A stretch of DNA of 45,593 nt from Thermodesulfovibrionales bacterium. Lineage in GTDB: Bacteria; Nitrospirota; Thermodesulfovibrionia; Thermodesulfovibrionales; SM23-35. Below are positions 32,991 to 43,775 of this stretch, in pieces. Position 1 is the stretch's first letter. Every line of letters begins with the position of its first letter. The DNA lies in the NCBI GenBank assembly GCA_030019415.1, contig JASEEX010000012.1:1-45593 (forward strand), given 5' to 3'. Under the pieces are notes generated by a model. That model was not told the DNA's origin. It made no database searches and saw only the letters and a program-made list of their open reading frames with translations. A program made the translations under genes and the position numbers.

Positions 32991-35093
32991 ATGGCAGACC
33001 TTGAGGTGGACAAAATACGCAATATAGCAGTTATTGCACATGGAGGTGCTGGTAAGACCTCACTTGTGGAGGCTATGCTTTTTAATTCCGGCTCTATCGA
33101 CAGGCTTGGTAATGTCCAGGATGGAACCACAACAACCGATTATGAGCCGGAAGAGACAGCAAGAAAGATAACTATTTCATCATCCCTCGCATTCTGTAAC
33201 TGGAAGGGTTACAGGATTAACCTGACAGACACACCAGGCCTTATCAATTTTCTTGAAGACACGAGGGGCTGCCTCAGGGCTGTTGATGGAGCTGTTGTCA
33301 TAATTAGCGCAGTCTCGGGTGTTAAGGCAGAGACAGAGAAGATATGGAGATATGCAGATGAATTTGAGGTGCCGAGGGTTGTCTTCATAAATAAAATGGA
33401 CAGGGATATTGCAAACTTTTCGAGGGCAGTAGGAGAGATTGAAAGATCTTTTGAGACAGAGGCTATACCCCTCTATATACCCATAGGCTTAGGGGATAGT
33501 TTTACCGGCGTTATTGACCTGGTAAAGATGAAGGCCTATAAATTTCATAATGGAAAGGCAGAGGAATCTGATATATCTTCTGAAATGGTTTCAGAAGCCG
33601 AAGGATACAAGAAGAAACTTGTAGAAAAGATTGCAGAGTCTGATGACAAGCTCCTTGAGAAATACCTTGAGGGTGGAGAGCTCTCGGAGGATGAAATTAT
33701 TAAAGGTACAAGAGAGGGCGCCTTAACAGGGAGGTTCACACCTGTTACGTGTGGCTCTGCAATCAGGAATATAGCAATCCCTCAGCTTCTTGATACCGTG
33801 CTTCTCTGTCTCCCCTCACCAGTAGAAATGGCACGCCTATCACCTATTAAGGGTACAAATCCGAAGAATGGAAAGGAGATCGAGAGAAGTCCCTCAAAGA
33901 CTGAACCCCTTTCAGCATATGTGTTCAAAACTATAGCTGACCCTTACGCGGGGAGGCTATCTGTCTTCAGGGTCTATTCCGGCATACTCAGGGCTGACTC
34001 TAATATCCTGAATACGTCAACGGGTACAAAGGAAAGGGTCGGCCAGGTCTTTTATCTCATGGGCAAAAAACAGATACCAGCGCATACAATAGGGCCAGGT
34101 GAAATAGGTGCTGTGGCAAAACTCAAGGAAACATATACAGGGGATACGCTCTCTGATGAGGCGCACCCGATTGTCTTTGAAAAGGTGAAATTTGCTGAGC
34201 CTATAATTTCTTATGCAATAGCGCCTAAGAGCAAGGGAGACGAAGAAAAGGTAAGCCTGAGCCTTCACAGGATCCTCGAAGAGGACACAACATTAAGGTT
34301 TCAAAGGGATGACGAGACAAAGGAGATGCTTCTCTCAGGTATGGGGCAGGTCCACCTCGAGGTAACAATCGAGAGGCTAAAAAGGAAGTTTGGAGTAGAA
34401 GTCTTGATGAAAACTCCGAAGATCCCTTATAGAGAGACGATCAAGGCCTCAGCGAAGGCCCAGGGCAAATACAAGAAACAGTCCGGTGGTCGCGGACAGT
34501 ATGGTGATTGCCGGATAGAGATAGAGCCACTGCCGAGAGGAGGCGGATATGAGTTTATCAATAAGATTGTAGGCGGTGTAATACCTCAACAATACAGGCC
34601 AGCGGTTGAGAAGGGAATACTGGGAACAATGCGCGAAGGGGTTATAGCAGGCTACCCCATAATTGATATAAAGGTAACCCTTTATGATGGTTCCTACCAC
34701 TCAGTAGATTCATCAGAAATGGCATTCAGGATCGCAGGCTCCATGGCCCTGAAAAAGGCCTTCCAGGATGCAAAGCCTGTATTGCTTGAGCCAATAATGA
34801 AGGTTGAGGTGATAACTCCAGATGATGCCCTCGGTGCAGTAATAGGAGATCTGAACTCAAAGAGGGGCAGAGTTCAGGGAGTAGAACCACAGGCAGGTGG
34901 CAACCAGAAAATCATTTCCCTTGTCCCCATGGCCGAAATGCTCACCTATGCGAACCAGCTCCATAGTCTTACTTCAGGCAGAGGGCTTTATTCAATGGAA
35001 TTTTCATATTATGAAGAGGTGCCTCCACATATCTCACAGAAGTTAATTGCAGAGCGCGAGGCCCAGAGGAAGGAGAAGGCAGAGGAGAAGTGA
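32991..35093 (+). CDS. EF-G-like translational GTPase (EF-G II type)
   Basis: The 700-residue product has the domain order of elongation factor G: GTPase (about 1-275), then domains II-V. G1 is AHGGAGKTS (about 16-24) and G4 is NKMD (134-137). The G3 motif reads DTPGL (80-84) instead of the usual DTPGH, so the catalytic histidine is missing, and G1 lacks the AHVDAGKTT form. Both mark the paralogous EF-G II group, whose role is less clear than that of canonical EF-G. The start is at ATG 32991 with GAGGGGG upstream; the frame opens 8 codons earlier. It overlaps ileS by 4 bp (GTGA). Confidence 0.9.
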   Translation: MADLEVDKIRNIAVIAHGGAGKTSLVEAMLFNSGSIDRLGNVQDGTTTTDYEPEETARKITISSSLAFCNWKGYRINLTDTPGLINFLEDTRGCLRAVDGAVVIISAVSGVKAETEKIWRYADEFEVPRVVFINKMDRDIANFSRAVGEIERSFETEAIPLYIPIGLGDSFTGVIDLVKMKAYKFHNGKAEESDISSEMVSEAEGYKKKLVEKIAESDDKLLEKYLEGGELSEDEIIKGTREGALTGRFTPVTCGSAIRNIAIPQLLDTVLLCLPSPVEMARLSPIKGTNPKNGKEIERSPSKTEPLSAYVFKTIADPYAGRLSVFRVYSGILRADSNILNTSTGTKERVGQVFYLMGKKQIPAHTIGPGEIGAVAKLKETYTGDTLSDEAHPIVFEKVKFAEPIISYAIAPKSKGDEEKVSLSLHRILEEDTTLRFQRDDETKEMLLSGMGQVHLEVTIERLKRKFGVEVLMKTPKIPYRETIKASAKAQGKYKKQSGGRGQYGDCRIEIEPLPRGGGYEFINKIVGGVIPQQYRPAVEKGILGTMREGVIAGYPIIDIKVTLYDGSYHSVDSSEMAFRIAGSMALKKAFQDAKPVLLEPIMKVEVITPDDALGAVIGDLNSKRGRVQGVEPQAGGNQKIISLVPMAEMLTYANQLHSLTSGRGLYSMEFSYYEEVPPHISQKLIAEREAQRKEKAEEK

Positions 35094-37981
35094 GTATCCT
35101 GTCAAAGGACTATAAAAACACCCTTAATCTTCCCCAGACAGACTTTCCGATGAAGGCAAATCTTTCCCAGAGAGAGCCAGAGATACTTAAGTTCTGGGAG
35201 GAGAGAAAGATATACGACAGGATCCAGGAAAAGAATCAAGGCAAAACTCCTTATATCCTGCATGACGGGCCTCCCTATGCAAATGAACGCATCCACATTG
35301 GACATGCATTAAACAAGATACTCAAGGACATAATTGTCAAATACAAATCAATGAAGGGCTTTTATTCTCCGTTCGTTCCCGGCTGGGACTGCCACGGCCT
35401 TCCAATAGAACATCAGGTTGACAAAAAACTCGAACTCGAAGGCATAAAAGACAAGGTAGATATTCTTGAAAAGAGAAAGCACTGTAAGGATTATGCGGAA
35501 ACATTCGTGGATATACAGAAACATGACTTCTGGAGGCTCGGGGTTTTTGGTGACTGGAAAATTCCTTATCTAACAATGTCCTCCAGATATGTAGCATACA
35601 TAGTTAGGGAGTTTACCCATTTTGTGAAAGAGGGATATGTTTATAGAAAGAGAAAGCCTGTACACTGGTGCCCTTCCTGTGTCACCGCCCTTGCAGAGGC
35701 AGAGGTGGAGTATGCTGATAAGGAATCACCCTCGATCTATGTGAAGTTCAGGGTTGAAAGTATTCCTGAAGGAAAAGAAATTTTGTTTGACGAGTTTCCC
35801 AGGATCGAACATTATTTTGTTGCATGGACGACCACACCATGGACGCTTGTAGCCAATCTGGCTTTGTGTTTACATCCTGCATATTCTTACCATTTAGTAA
35901 AGGTAAATATTGGGCAGGGTAGATATGAGATCTACATCATTGTAGGAAAACTCTTGGATGTTTGCATGAAAGAGTTTGGTTTCAAGTCCTGCAGGGATAA
36001 GGATGTACCTGATGTTGGAGAATATCAAGTTATTGCTACCTGGGGGGGCGAAATTCTTGAAGGAATAATGTGCAAACATCCGTTTATTGATAGGAAATCA
36101 AAAGTAATCCTTGGTGACTTTGTTACTGTTGGCGAGGGAACTGGTATTGTGCATATCGCACCGGGTCACGGAGAAGACGACTACGAGATTGGACTTAAGT
36201 ATGGCCTTGATATCTATGCGCCCGTTGACGATAGAGGAAGATTCACAAAAGAGGCAGGGGAACTTGAAGGCCAATTCGTATTTAAGGCAAATGCGAAAAT
36301 AATAGAGATTTTGAAAAATAAGAATTCCTTGATAAAAGAAGAGAGGTTTATCCATTCTTATCCCCATTGCTGGAGATGCAAGAAGCCTGTTATTTTCCGC
36401 GCAACAGAGCAGTGGTTCATCTCGATCGAGCATAACGGTCTGCGGAAACGTTGTCTCGAAGAGATTGACAGAGTAAACTGGATTCCCCGCTGGGGAAGGG
36501 ACAGGATTTATGGTATGGTCTTAAACAGACCTGACTGGTGCATATCGAGACAGAGGGCATGGGGAGTTCCAATAACACTGATAAAATGCGATAGCTGTAG
36601 TGGATTTATTAAGGAAGAGGAAGTGTTCGAAGGGATTATAAAATCTTTTGAAGAAAAGGATGCTGATATATGGTTTATAAAAAGTGTAGATGAGTTTTTA
36701 CCTTCAGGGTATAAGTGTAAAAAGTGTGGAGGTAATTCATTTTCAAAGGAGATGGATATACTTGATGTCTGGTTTGATTCAGGTATAAGCCATGCTGCTG
36801 TCATAGGTATAGATAAAAGGCTTAACTGGCCTGCTGATATATATCTTGAAGGGAGTGACCAGCACAGGGGATGGTTCCAGAGCTCGCTGCTAACAGCTGT
36901 AGGGACAAAAGGTAAAGCTCCTTACAAGACTGTACTCACACACGGCTTTGTTGTTGATGGCCAGGGTAAAAAGATGTCCAAATCTCTCGGAAATGTCGTA
37001 GCACCACAGGAGGTCATAAAGTCGGATGGTGCAGAGATACTGAGATTATGGGTTTCGGCCAAGGATTATAGAGATGACATAAGGATATCTAAAGAGATCC
37101 TCGAGAGGCTTACAGAGGCATACAGGAAGATAAGGAATACCTGCAGGTTTCTGCTTGGTAACCTTTACGATTTTGATTATAGGGATTATAGCTATGCCCT
37201 TTTAGAGATAGACTCAAAGATAGACAGATGGGCAATGAGCAGGCTCCAGACACTTATAGAAACGGTTACCTCAGCATATGAGAATTTTAACTTTCATGAG
37301 GTCTTTCATGCCCTCTACAATTTCTGCGTTGTTGACATGAGCTCCTTTTATCTCGATGTCTTGAAAGACAGGCTCTATACATTTAAACCGGGCTCTATGG
37401 AAAGGCGTGTTACCCAATGGGTCCTTTACCAGATACTCTCAACAATGACACGATTAATGGCGCCAGTACTTTCATTCACCGCAGAAGAGGTCTGGCAGAA
37501 TATAAAGCAAAGAGCAAAGAGCAAAGAGCAAAGAGAAGAAGACATAGAAGATTCGGTTTTTCTTGCCTCATTCCCGGAGGTTGATGAAAAGTATTATGAC
37601 CAGGAGCTTGAAAAAAAGTGGGATGATCTATTTGTACTGAGAAGTGAGGTGAATAAGGCACTCGAGATTAAAAGGGCGGAGAAGTTCCTGGGGAATTCCC
37701 TCGAGGCAAAGGTAATACTCTATCCACCGGAGAGATATAATGCCCTCCTTTCAGAATACAGAGATTTCTTACCAGCATTTTTTATTGTCTCAGCAGTAGA
37801 GATTACAGATCAAAGTCCTGATGCCTCCTATAAAAGCAGAGAGATAGAGGGGTTTGAGGTTAAGGTAGAGAAGGCATCAGGGGCAAAATGTCAGAGGTGC
37901 TGGAATTGGAGCGAGAGTGTTGGTAGATTTAAAGAGGCACCCGAAATCTGCGAGAGGTGTTATGAGGTTATCTCTGGATAA
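35090..37981 (+). CDS. ileS: Isoleucyl-tRNA synthetase
   Basis: IleS charges tRNA-Ile. The 963-residue product has the HIGH motif in GPPYANERIHIGHALNK (about residues 58-74), the editing domain (TTPWTL at about 247-252), KMSKSLGN (about 627-634) and a C-terminal zinc site CQRCWNW / CERCYE (about 933-958). The GTG start overlaps the upstream stop. Residues 806-815 (KQRAKSKEQR) come from a (GCAAAGA)x4 array in a variable linker of the anticodon-binding domain. lspA follows directly, a common ileS-lspA arrangement. Confidence 0.98.
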   Translation: MSILSKDYKNTLNLPQTDFPMKANLSQREPEILKFWEERKIYDRIQEKNQGKTPYILHDGPPYANERIHIGHALNKILKDIIVKYKSMKGFYSPFVPGWDCHGLPIEHQVDKKLELEGIKDKVDILEKRKHCKDYAETFVDIQKHDFWRLGVFGDWKIPYLTMSSRYVAYIVREFTHFVKEGYVYRKRKPVHWCPSCVTALAEAEVEYADKESPSIYVKFRVESIPEGKEILFDEFPRIEHYFVAWTTTPWTLVANLALCLHPAYSYHLVKVNIGQGRYEIYIIVGKLLDVCMKEFGFKSCRDKDVPDVGEYQVIATWGGEILEGIMCKHPFIDRKSKVILGDFVTVGEGTGIVHIAPGHGEDDYEIGLKYGLDIYAPVDDRGRFTKEAGELEGQFVFKANAKIIEILKNKNSLIKEERFIHSYPHCWRCKKPVIFRATEQWFISIEHNGLRKRCLEEIDRVNWIPRWGRDRIYGMVLNRPDWCISRQRAWGVPITLIKCDSCSGFIKEEEVFEGIIKSFEEKDADIWFIKSVDEFLPSGYKCKKCGGNSFSKEMDILDVWFDSGISHAAVIGIDKRLNWPADIYLEGSDQHRGWFQSSLLTAVGTKGKAPYKTVLTHGFVVDGQGKKMSKSLGNVVAPQEVIKSDGAEILRLWVSAKDYRDDIRISKEILERLTEAYRKIRNTCRFLLGNLYDFDYRDYSYALLEIDSKIDRWAMSRLQTLIETVTSAYENFNFHEVFHALYNFCVVDMSSFYLDVLKDRLYTFKPGSMERRVTQWVLYQILSTMTRLMAPVLSFTAEEVWQNIKQRAKSKEQREEDIEDSVFLASFPEVDEKYYDQELEKKWDDLFVLRSEVNKALEIKRAEKFLGNSLEAKVILYPPERYNALLSEYRDFLPAFFIVSAVEITDQSPDASYKSREIEGFEVKVEKASGAKCQRCWNWSESVGRFKEAPEICERCYEVISG
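37507..37534. repeat. In-frame heptamer array (GCAAAGA)x4 in ileS
   Basis: Four perfect 7-bp units encode the Lys/Gln/Arg-rich linker of IleS. The same unit (CAAAGAG in another register) and its variant CAGAGAG make up the array in tsaD. Confidence 0.95.
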
Positions 37982-39242: not shown

Positions 39243-40277
39243 TTAGAGTGGCATGTATGCCTTTGGATTTAAATCAAGCCCGACGGTATCTCCTGCCTCA
39301 AGATGGTAATATCCTGCTGATGCAATCATGGCTGCGTTGTCAGTGCAAAAAGATGCAGAAGGTGTGAAGATTTCTACTTCTCTTTCGTCTCCCATCTCTT
39401 TCATCCTTCTCCTTAGCTCTCTGTTTGCAGCCACCCCGCCTGTGAGGACAACCCGTTTAATGCCCTCTTTTTTGATTGCCCATTCTGTTTTCCTTACAAG
39501 GACATCGATTATAGAAGCTTGGAAGGAAGCGGCTATATCGTTTACTCTCTGCTCTCTGCTCTCTGCTCTTTGCTCTTTCACGAAATTCAGTACTGCTGTT
39601 TTCAGTCCGCTGAAGCTGAAATCAAAGGACTCTGGCAGGTATGCCCTCGGGAAGTCTATTGCCTTGGGATTTCCATCTTGTGCGATTTTCTCGATTATCG
39701 GGCCACCAGGGTATCCGAGGCCAAGGAGCTTTGAGACCTTATCATATGCCTCACCTGCTGCATCATCCCTCGTCCTGCCAAGCTCCCTGTATTTACCAAA
39801 ATCGTCAACTCTGTAAAGGCATGTATGTCCTCCCGATACAATGAGGGCAAGGAATGGAAAGGATGGAGTGCGTGGGGGAAACTCTGTTTCCCCCACGGGC
39901 CCCCTTTCACTTAAAAAGCAGGAGAATATGTGACCCTCGAGATGGTTCACTGCAACGAGGGGAATTCCTTTTGAATAGCATAAGGCCTTTGCAAAAGAGC
40001 AGCCTACAAGGAGAGAGCCTATCAGGCCAGGACCATGACATGCAGCAACACCGGAAAGATCCTCAAGTTTAATATTGGCAGCCTTTAATGCCTCATCAAC
40101 AACAGGCCATATCATCTCTATATGCCGGCGGGATGCAAGTTCAGGGACAATACCACCGTATTTTTTGTGTACCTCTGTCTGGTTTGAGACAATGTTGGAT
40201 AGGACCTTTGTTCCATTCTCGACGACAGCTGCTGTTGTGTCATCACAGGAGGTATCAATCCCTAAGATTAGGCTCAT
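39243..40277 (-). CDS. tsaD: tRNA N6-adenosine threonylcarbamoyltransferase
   Basis: TsaD adds the threonylcarbamoyl group of t6A37 to ANN-reading tRNAs. The 344-residue product has the ASKHA fold with GIDTSCDDTTAAVVENG (about residues 6-22), VNHLEGHIF metal-site histidines (about 107-115), LIVSGGHTCLY (about 143-153) and the C-terminal GGVAANRELRRRM. Two inserts are visible: residues about 127-135 from a perfect 12-bp hairpin (39871-39897), and about 233-244 from a heptamer array (39545-39579). Its start overlaps the end of lolA by 23 bp. Confidence 0.97.
   Translation of the reverse strand: MSLILGIDTSCDDTTAAVVENGTKVLSNIVSNQTEVHKKYGGIVPELASRRHIEMIWPVVDEALKAANIKLEDLSGVAACHGPGLIGSLLVGCSFAKALCYSKGIPLVAVNHLEGHIFSCFLSERGPVGETEFPPRTPSFPFLALIVSGGHTCLYRVDDFGKYRELGRTRDDAAGEAYDKVSKLLGLGYPGGPIIEKIAQDGNPKAIDFPRAYLPESFDFSFSGLKTAVLNFVKEQRAESREQRVNDIAASFQASIIDVLVRKTEWAIKKEGIKRVVLTGGVAANRELRRRMKEMGDEREVEIFTPSASFCTDNAAMIASAGYYHLEAGDTVGLDLNPKAYMPL
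39545..39579. repeat. In-frame heptamer array (CTCTCTG)x3 plus CTCTTTG, CTCTTTC in tsaD
   Basis: Five 7-bp units encode KEQRAESREQR in TsaD. On the coding strand the units read CAGAGAG and CAAAGAG, the same family as the ileS array 2 kb away. Confidence 0.95.
39871..39897. repeat. In-frame perfect hairpin in tsaD
   Basis: CGTGGGGGAAAC (39871-39882) pairs over 12 bp with GTTTCCCCCACG (39886-39897) around a 3-base loop. It encodes about ten residues (GPVGETEFPP) in a surface-loop position before the ALIVSGGHT block. No T-run follows and it is inside a gene, so it is not a normal terminator. Confidence 0.9.
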
Positions 40278-40938
40278 ATATAGTTACGCCCTTTGGTAAG
40301 GAAGGCTCAAACAATCCGTCTTCCAACCCTGTATTAATCTTCACATCCTTCAGCGTTATCTCTATTCTGTTTGAATAAGAATCGTTTACGGTGAACGAAC
40401 CTATTGGGAATTCGCCCTCAGAAGGTTCGATCTCTATAGAGAGTATCCCTCCCATTGAAGTTTTTGGTTTCAGGAGAAGACTTCCGTTCTTTCCAGATAC
40501 AAAGAACTCTTCCTGAATTCTTCCAAATCCACTCAGAAGGGCTATCGGTGCCCGGCCATAGGTATTCCTGCCAAATTTTCCCCTGAATGCCTGCCTTTCC
40601 TTTTTCTGATATATTATGATCTCATCACTATTAATAAGAACCTCCTGGGCTACTTCTCCCTTATACTCCCACCTCATCTTCATCGGCCTCTTTATGAAGA
40701 ATTGACCTTTATATGTATCAATGCGCTTAAGGTCCTTAATATGGCTCTTCTGAATAAAGCTACCCCTTATGTCTTTAATGTTCTCATATGCCTTTTGAAT
40801 CCTTGCAATGTCCTCCTCAACGGATGAGGCAGCAATAGAAACAGTGAAAAGTGAACAGTGAAAAGTGAACAGTGAAAAAACCCAAACTATTAAAGGCAGA
40901 AGATTACTTTTTAGCCGCTTGCTAATTATCTTTTTCAT
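40255..40938 (-). CDS. lolA: LolA-like outer-membrane lipoprotein carrier protein
   Basis: LolA-like proteins carry lipoproteins across the periplasm. The 227-residue product has an N-terminal signal peptide (about residues 1-37, Lys-rich then hydrophobic, ending SIAAS) and the LolA fold with IRGSFIQKSHIKDL (about 57-70), KRPMKMRWEY (about 83-92) and repeated beta strands. Part of the hydrophobic core of the signal peptide (about residues 21-32, FSLFTFHCSLFT) is encoded by a 7-bp-period array. It overlaps tsaD. A lipoprotein role agrees with lspA and lgt nearby. Confidence 0.88.
   Translation of the reverse strand: MKKIISKRLKSNLLPLIVWVFSLFTFHCSLFTVSIAASSVEEDIARIQKAYENIKDIRGSFIQKSHIKDLKRIDTYKGQFFIKRPMKMRWEYKGEVAQEVLINSDEIIIYQKKERQAFRGKFGRNTYGRAPIALLSGFGRIQEEFFVSGKNGSLLLKPKTSMGGILSIEIEPSEGEFPIGSFTVNDSYSNRIEITLKDVKINTGLEDGLFEPSLPKGVTIYEPNLRD
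40842..40876. repeat. In-frame heptamer array (CAGTGAA/AAGTGAA alternating) in lolA
   Basis: The units CAGTGAA, AAGTGAA, CAGTGAA, AAGTGAA and CAGTGAA follow in tandem. On the minus strand they encode part of the LolA signal peptide. Confidence 0.95.
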
Positions 40939-41039: not shown

Positions 41040-41290
41040 TTTACAGCAGTAAGCATCTCCAATTCCGTGAGGGCAGGATATAGTGTTTGAGCGGATTCTT
41101 TTGCCGATCCTGAACTTGATTCAGGACCCATTGAGAATTTATTAATATAAAGAGGCAAAAGCCTCGGAGTCCCGCACTATGACATAGTGCGGGACGAGAA
41201 TGAGCGAAAACACTATATCCTGCCCTTTATTACCATTTAAAAATTAAAGTTAAATCCTGTCACGAAAAAAGAGATGCTTACTTTACAGCA
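41040..41290. mobile_element. MITE-like element with terminal inverted repeats and 9-bp target duplication
   Basis: A 9-bp direct repeat, TTTACAGCA at 41040-41048 and 41282-41290, flanks 233 bp. The ends of this segment are perfect 11-bp inverted repeats (GTAAGCATCTC at 41049-41059, GAGATGCTTAC at 41271-41281). Inside is an 18-bp perfect inverted pair (GGGCAGGATATAGTGTTT at 41071-41088 and its complement at 41208-41225), an inner CTTTTGCC/GGCAAAAG pair, a TCCTGAA/TTCAGGA hairpin and a 13-bp hairpin GTCCCGCACTATG-A-CATAGTGCGGGAC. It has no coding capacity. It lies between divergent lolA and the moaE-like gene. Confidence 0.75.
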
Positions 41291-41426: not shown

Positions 41427-41777
41427 GTGATTGAAAAATGGATAGCAGAGATAAAGGGAAGCTCAAATCTTAGGGAACTCGGGATGATCCTTATACATAA
41501 TGGAATTGTGAGAGCTACCTCAAAAGATGGAAAGAGCGTAAAAGGCGTGCATCTCTCTTACGATAAGGAAAAACTAAACTTCCTGATAGCCGAGTTTAAG
41601 AAAAAAGAGGGTATCGTCGCAATAAAGGCCTGGATAAATGAAGGGACCCTTAATGCTGGCGATGATATAATGTATGTATTAGTTGCCGGAAGGCTGAGAA
41701 CAGACGTCCTACCAACATTTGAAGAGCTTTTGTCGAGGATAAAAAGAGAGGTTGTTTCCAAAGAGGAGTTCTCTTAG
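41427..41777 (+). CDS. MoaE-like molybdopterin synthase large subunit
   Basis: The 116-residue product resembles MoaE, which with thiolated MoaD inserts the dithiolene sulfurs into molybdopterin. Typical parts are GMILIHNGIVRATSKDGKSV (about residues 19-38), AWINEGTLNAGDDIMYVLVAG (about 67-87, here described as the Gly-rich strand pair) and the end VVSKEE with the conserved lysine. It is shorter than E. coli MoaE (150). The GTG start has a strong ribosome site. No intact MoaD lies beside it; the only carrier in the window is the broken one at 26340. Confidence 0.8.
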   Translation: MIEKWIAEIKGSSNLRELGMILIHNGIVRATSKDGKSVKGVHLSYDKEKLNFLIAEFKKKEGIVAIKAWINEGTLNAGDDIMYVLVAGRLRTDVLPTFEELLSRIKREVVSKEEFS

Positions 41778-43711: not shown

Positions 43712-43737
43712 CCCCGCACTTTCACAAAAGTGCGGGG
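43712..43737. terminator. Bidirectional terminator between convergent genes
   Basis: CCCCGCACTTT (43712-43722) pairs over 11 bp with AAAGTGCGGGG (43727-43737). It lies between the small coiled-coil gene (plus) and the phospholipase C-like gene (minus), directly after the former's stop. The T-run is weak on both strands. The ACCCCG/CGGGGT ends match the dispersed hairpin family. Confidence 0.65.
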
Positions 43738-43775
43738 TAGCTTTCTGTGGTGCGAGGTACAGGATGGACCGAGTC

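Follow-up and report, generated by a model that had tools for sequence, protein, structure and literature searches.

What is the 233-bp non-coding element at positions 41049-41281 of the window (the whole 45,593-nucleotide stretch of Thermodesulfovibrionales DNA analysed here), and does it represent one genetic object or several? The element sits between lolA (40255-40938, minus strand) and a 116-codon gene (41427-41777, plus strand). The initial annotation read it as a layered, MITE-like foldback without coding capacity that might be mobilised by a transposase or might encode a structured RNA. The reading that we consider moderately probable is a composite of independent layers, in which a MITE carries a copy of an extragenic repeat that is defined by its fold.

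Nested architecture of the locus

No open reading frame of at least 60 amino acids overlaps the element, in keeping with the lack of coding capacity given in the initial annotation, and the layered foldback that the latter described is present in full. GTAAGCATCTC and GAGATGCTTAC are the two ends of the element, complementary without mismatch over 11 bp. The nested inverted pairs are 41048-41070 with 41260-41282 (23 nt, 83%), 41070-41106 with 41190-41226 (37 nt, 81%) and the 13-bp hairpin 41169-41181 with 41183-41195 (13 nt, 100%). The inner 161 nt fold with an energy of -81.5 kcal/mol, compared with -36.0 ± 4.0 kcal/mol for shuffled sequences (z = -11.5; 0 of 200 shuffles). The features are as follows, with the basis for each in brackets.

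41040..41048, no strand: left copy of the 9-bp target-site duplication TTTACAGCA (sequence, coordinates checked)
41282..41290, no strand: right copy of the 9-bp target-site duplication TTTACAGCA (sequence)
41049..41281, no strand: outer MITE, non-coding, 233 bp (terminal repeats and duplication; own-genome copies)
41049..41070, plus: left terminal inverted repeat, 11 bp perfect and imperfect to ~22 bp, GKAAGCATCWCYNNNTYCGT (pattern common to copies)
41260..41281, minus: right terminal inverted repeat (inverted pair; pattern in copies)
41068..41228, plus: inner three-way-junction core (covariance model R1, 131.5 bits)
41070..41088, plus: 5' arm of P1, the 19-bp closing stem (inverted pair, alignment)
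41208..41226, plus: 3' arm of P1 (inverted pair, alignment)
41089..41094, plus: junction GAGCGG (near-invariant in 71 copies of a relative)
41098..41161, plus: P2 domain, in which CTTTTGCC (41098-41105) pairs with GGCAAAAG (41154-41161) (compensated P2 pairs)
41106..41129, no strand: third layer, a palindromic repeat GATCCTGAACTTGATTCAGGACCC within P2 (copy comparison)
41162..41169, plus: junction CCTCGGAG (alignment)
41169..41195, plus: P3 hairpin, perfect 13 bp (inverted pair, alignment)
41195..41207, plus: junction CGAGAATGAGCGA (alignment)

Within the junction, the GA of GAGCGG lies opposite GA at 41206-41207, its GC pairs with 41204-41205 and its GG pairs with CC at 41162-41163. The palindrome GATCCTGAACTTGATTCAGGACCC is found inside P2 of three copies (L001, L003 and L004), and other copies lack it and have CGATAGTCC instead; it also occurs elsewhere in the genome, once in an apparent coding region (L027).

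Other simple repeats were observed nearby. The conserved proteins of ileS (35090-37981) and tsaD (39243-40277) both contain in-frame low-complexity stretches (QRAKSKEQREE; KEQRAESREQRV) that apparently derive from one simple repeat type, and at the start of lolA (40840-40880) a tandem GTGAACAGTGAAAA repeat encodes FHCSLFTVS in the signal-peptide region.

Further genomic copies identify the outer layer as a MITE

The genome to which the window belongs (G000) is a 1.94 Mb draft in 166 contigs and holds at least five two-ended copies of the outer element besides that in the window. Perfect 9-bp duplications flank four of the sites, namely the window, L004 (AGGAGTTAT), L006 (GAAGCATGT) and L007 (TTTCCTCTC), and each is different; at L003 the duplication matches at 8 of 9 positions, and L002 shows an 8-bp repeat with a two-base offset. 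Because several further two-ended copies exist, three of them with perfect and differing 9-bp duplications, identification of the outer layer as a MITE, a small non-coding transposon relic, is well supported: it is short, non-coding and bounded by terminal inverted repeats, it has a target-site duplication of constant length, and its copies are multiple and dispersed. The 9-bp duplication proposed in the initial annotation is thereby borne out, and the further genomic copies that it suggested looking for exist, so that the locus is not the single-copy sequence that would have spoken against mobility. One copy (L003/L008, G000:C79:15090-15322) carries the 74-bp left half of its core inverted in place.

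Of 121 genomes searched for the extended end pattern GKAAGCATCWCYNNNTYCGT, only two contain it, G000 with 11 occurrences and G019 with two, and for this reason the MITE family looks young and local. The partner IS that the initial annotation had envisaged was not seen: a search of the own genome and 120 relatives with the exact end pattern, over draft contigs, returned no IS sharing the MITE ends. A two-step insertion had also been proposed on the basis of AATTCC, which follows the left repeat and recurs in the right flank. This loses its footing, since other copies have AATTCC within their terminal repeat (CCAATTCCGT) and its recurrence in the flank looks like chance.

The inner foldback occurs independently of the MITE

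BLAST matches together with inspection by hand reveal the core at many sites that lack MITE ends, and at each of them it is closed by an inverted repeat particular to that copy. Matches to the covariance model R1 give ~20 distinct copies in G000, most of them outside the MITE, and 112 copies in G052 (2.8 Mb, ~1 copy per 25 kb). Across the phylum the distribution of cores is patchy, with 59 of 295 genomes containing them. Scanning a public genome collection with an exact pattern returned at least 117 stretches; record titles among the matches listed include Nitrospirae/Thermodesulfovibrionales, Latescibacterota, Gemmatimonadetes, Desulfobacterales, Desulfobulbaceae, Desulfurivibrio sp. AMeS2 and Parcubacteria, which places the core in Latescibacterota, Gemmatimonadota, Desulfobacterota and Parcubacteria beside Nitrospirota, although a few of these contigs may be misbinned because most of the records are metagenome bins. 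In these records the helix letters are wholly different and the junction is the same, and R1 recovers these copies. The inner foldback is thus an element independent of the MITE, and the word nested in the initial annotation holds more strongly than was meant, with the foldback standing without the MITE in G000 and in other phyla. Viral contigs and plasmids gave no match, and a literature search with the motif letters returned only unrelated work.

In the window, the core model finds only a single copy. The initial annotation had compared the core hairpin to those at 43712 and ~1050; both of these lack the junction motifs, and their kinship with the core is not supported. The former (43712-43738) is a simple CCCCGCACTTT hairpin directly past a stop codon and not a copy of the core.

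In G019, the same MITE ends bear a different, putatively folded element of ~190 nt. This larger element also occurs without the MITE in G000 (C118:4504), G015, G027, G043 and G052 (loci L413 and L425-L431, for example G000:C118:4504-4676 and G052:C9:57131-57304), and its closing stem is variable as in the core, with a TTGAGCG / AGCGAAA junction that resembles the core's. Six sequences of this predicted fold were aligned, and it has no match in Rfam.

The core is conserved in fold and maintained on one strand

The core is a ~125-nt three-way junction with a 19-bp closing stem, P1, and two hairpins, P2 and P3, arranged in the order GAGCGG, P2, CCTCGGAG, P3, CGAGAATGAGCGA; the near-invariance of the junction was checked in 71 copies from G052. 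With the structure taken from one copy, an alignment of 29 copies representing several genera has 93% of cells paired and 37 of 48 pairs with changes on both sides, and none of 500 shuffles of this alignment reaches any of the measures, while slid controls are 40-50% paired. A cross-phylum set is 90% paired compared with ~40% in slid controls; because its alignment (A3) had been fitted to the R1 model, the structure is favoured by construction. The core is therefore conserved in fold, not in sequence, across phyla.

Which strand is it that folds? On the plus strand of the core, G.U pairs in P1 outnumber A.C mismatches 77 to 15, with ratios of 134:20 in G052 cores, 138:21 in a further, partly overlapping set and 19:4 outside Nitrospirota, these sets sharing members in part. 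A fold of the other strand would reverse the ratio, and a strand-neutral process would give parity. The excess holds where the neighbouring genes are transcribed against the core (67:13) and where they are transcribed with it (25:2), which argues that neither the neighbours' mRNA nor transcription-linked mutation lies behind it. For this reason, the fold that is maintained is that of the plus strand. Compensatory changes combined with a G.U preference on one strand are the signature expected of a structured RNA, and the initial suggestion of such an RNA, as far as the sequence can speak to it, appears to fit the inner part of the element; the asymmetry itself is compatible with RNA and single-stranded DNA alike.

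The closing stem behaves differently from the interior

Pairing in P1 runs for ~18-19 bp and then falls sharply. Among 71 copies in G052, identity in P1 is unrelated to identity in the interior (r = 0.07 for the proximal and 0.05 for the distal part), and two copies have identical 83-nt interiors closed by different self-complementary stems. Similarly, G000 copies L016 and L018 are 99% identical in the interior and 78% identical in the P1 arms, the distal pairs having changed in both arms. MITE-borne cores have P1 arms that are 93% alike around interiors that are 78% alike, compared with 50% likeness for the arms of free copies. The stability of MITE-borne P1 indicates that P1 is not simply hypermutable and that its diversity is a property of free copies.

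Several explanations of P1 were considered and set aside. It does not appear to be a pre-existing hairpin that received the interior (252 kb of G052 contain no P1-like hairpin that stands empty), nor a duplicated target, being absent from the aligned empty sites, although site L314 gives an ambiguous hint of one. A -10-like promoter within P1 was dismissed, as it is not accompanied by a conserved -35.

Free copies lie at gene ends and appear to turn over

Free cores are intergenic, and most have a stop codon no more than ~20 nt away; in G052 the median distance from the P1 end to the stop codon of the gene reading towards the core is ~8 nt, these distances being approximate as genes were taken as longest open frames. 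In co-directional gene pairs of G052 the folding strand is antisense by 37 to 12, and two further samples, which overlap in part, give 36:11 and 40:16. No recurrent mobile-element protein adjoins the cores, and their neighbours belong to unrelated housekeeping families. The trpE-trpG junction holds a core in more than one genome (L108 in G274 and L310 in G043); in G000 there is no core beside trpG.

Within one genus, core counts are 12 (G032), 13 (G270), 1 (G233) and 2 (G043). G032 and G270 share no occupied site, and both G043 sites match G032 sites, where P1 and P3 differ by compensated changes. Six G032 sites could be aligned to G270: the element is missing from four, a different repeat occupies one, and one retains an apparent remnant of P1. 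The remnant points to deletion, and hence some absences are losses. Empty sites give no clean insertion junction and their flanking intergenic bases also differ; short direct repeats at two of them could come from slippage deletion. These comparisons suggest that core copies may be gained and lost fast.

Which explanation fits both layers?

A single transposon, with the core as the middle of the MITE and free copies as MITEs that lost their ends, could account for the seven own-genome copies that join a core to at least one MITE end. However, exact MITE ends occur in only 2 of 121 related genomes, and cores occur in dozens as well as in other phyla; free cores differ in P1 and have no MITE remnants, and the G019 ends hold another folded element. 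Because cores exist in genomes without the MITE, this explanation is contradicted, and we regard it as highly improbable. It is also very unlikely that the palindromes lack a function and owe their self-complementarity to template switching as the DNA replicates. Such a process would explain why arms remain complementary as their sequence changes, and why orthologous sites differ in P1 and P3, yet it is strand-symmetric, and the G.U excess over A.C is about five- to seven-fold; nor would it leave the junction near-invariant and the MITE-borne P1 stable. A repeat of the REP/BIME type, in which a RAYT-like Y1 transposase acts on the folded strand with the GGAG before P3 as its tag, is suggested by the extragenic position, the high copy number, the GGAG at the foot of P3 and the RAYT-sized Y1 proteins in the own genome. 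Y1 transposases (PF01797), however, are not enriched in core-bearing genomes (44 of 59, compared with 199 of 295 in the phylum; Fisher p = 0.22) and are absent from G158 and G299, with at least 10 cores each, and from G020, with 8; in the own genome, where three of seven Y1 places were listed, the RAYTs among these three share no contig with a core. We consider this origin improbable. Movement of the core by a reverse transcriptase was rejected, as RVT_1 (PF00078) does not co-occur with it (21 of 59 core genomes, 109 of 295 overall, p = 0.88; none in the own genome).

A further hypothesis sees in the core a non-coding RNA or cis-regulatory family with a function at 3' ends, in processing or in protein binding, which is kept for the benefit of the host and is not selfish; variable occupancy would then be regulation gained and lost. 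A near-invariant junction with free helices is what known structured RNAs display, cores adjoin stop codons, and some junctions such as trpE-trpG are occupied across several genomes. However, the maintained strand is mostly antisense to the flanking genes, copy number ranges from 0 to 112 among related genomes, G032 and G270 have no occupied site in common, and the genes that adjoin cores are unrelated to one another, which makes this hypothesis rather unlikely. Somewhat more doubtful is a fold-defined mobile element, in which a putative enzyme would read the junction and the 19-bp stem and each insertion would gain its own self-complementary stem, the TTGAGCG / AGCGAAA closing junction being common to the ~125-nt and ~190-nt versions; such an element would need a mover that reads shape.

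Returning to the composite reading, we hypothesize that the MITE was mobilised in trans through its GTAAGCATC ends by a transposase, and that its passenger was thereby copied along with the P1 stem. The passenger may be a REP-like extragenic repeat whose shape is kept since something binds or processes the folded plus strand, possibly as RNA more readily than as single-stranded DNA. Interiors would be transferred from one resident copy to another, either through gene conversion or through insertions that make new arms, and this proposed transfer would account for each free copy having its own self-complementary P1.

Repeat families are normally found by shared sequence. The core holds its shape in five phyla or more, even as its letters turn over, and ordinary annotation misses it for that reason. 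It stands at gene ends within operons, the trp operon among them, and if it is an RNA, it would constitute an undescribed class of structured RNA in little-studied phyla.

Comparison with known systems

The outer element resembles bacterial MITEs, the non-autonomous derivatives of IS, in its shortness, non-coding nature, terminal inverted repeats, duplication and several copies; it differs from them in bearing an independent folded passenger, and the search of the own genome and 120 relatives, over draft contigs, showed no IS with the same ends.

Integron attC sites have variable stems that are recognised by fold, and the core likewise lies just past stop codons with its folding strand antisense to the gene. 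However, the foot of P1 is variable in 71 copies and carries no conserved RYYYAAC/GTTRRRY-like bases of an R box. A gene-cassette reading was rejected, as the examined clusters are conserved operons, such as the trp operon, whose order is not cassette-like.

Like the structured RNA families of Rfam 15, the core has covarying helices around a near-invariant junction, but the small and large versions searched at E values up to 1 gave no credible match and none above the gathering score. RsmW was rejected as its identity (E = 0.26; 18 bits against a gathering score of 52), and this weak match probably reflects GGA loops that are absent from some copies.

REP, BIME and REPIN repeats are extragenic, intercistronic, hairpin-based and of high and variable copy number, with GGAG before the hairpin and a unit that is a single hairpin of 20-40 bp (PMC2817692, PMC3116915, PMC3733652). 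The core shares with them its extragenic position, its high and variable copy number and the GGAG before one hairpin; in contrast, it is a ~125-nt three-way junction rather than a single 20-40 bp hairpin, with a 19-bp closing stem, a fold held across phyla, and neither linkage to nor co-occurrence with RAYT/Y1 genes. The inner layer is best read as an undescribed repeat that falls outside both the REP definition and the Rfam families, and that is REP-like in habit and structured-RNA-like in conservation.
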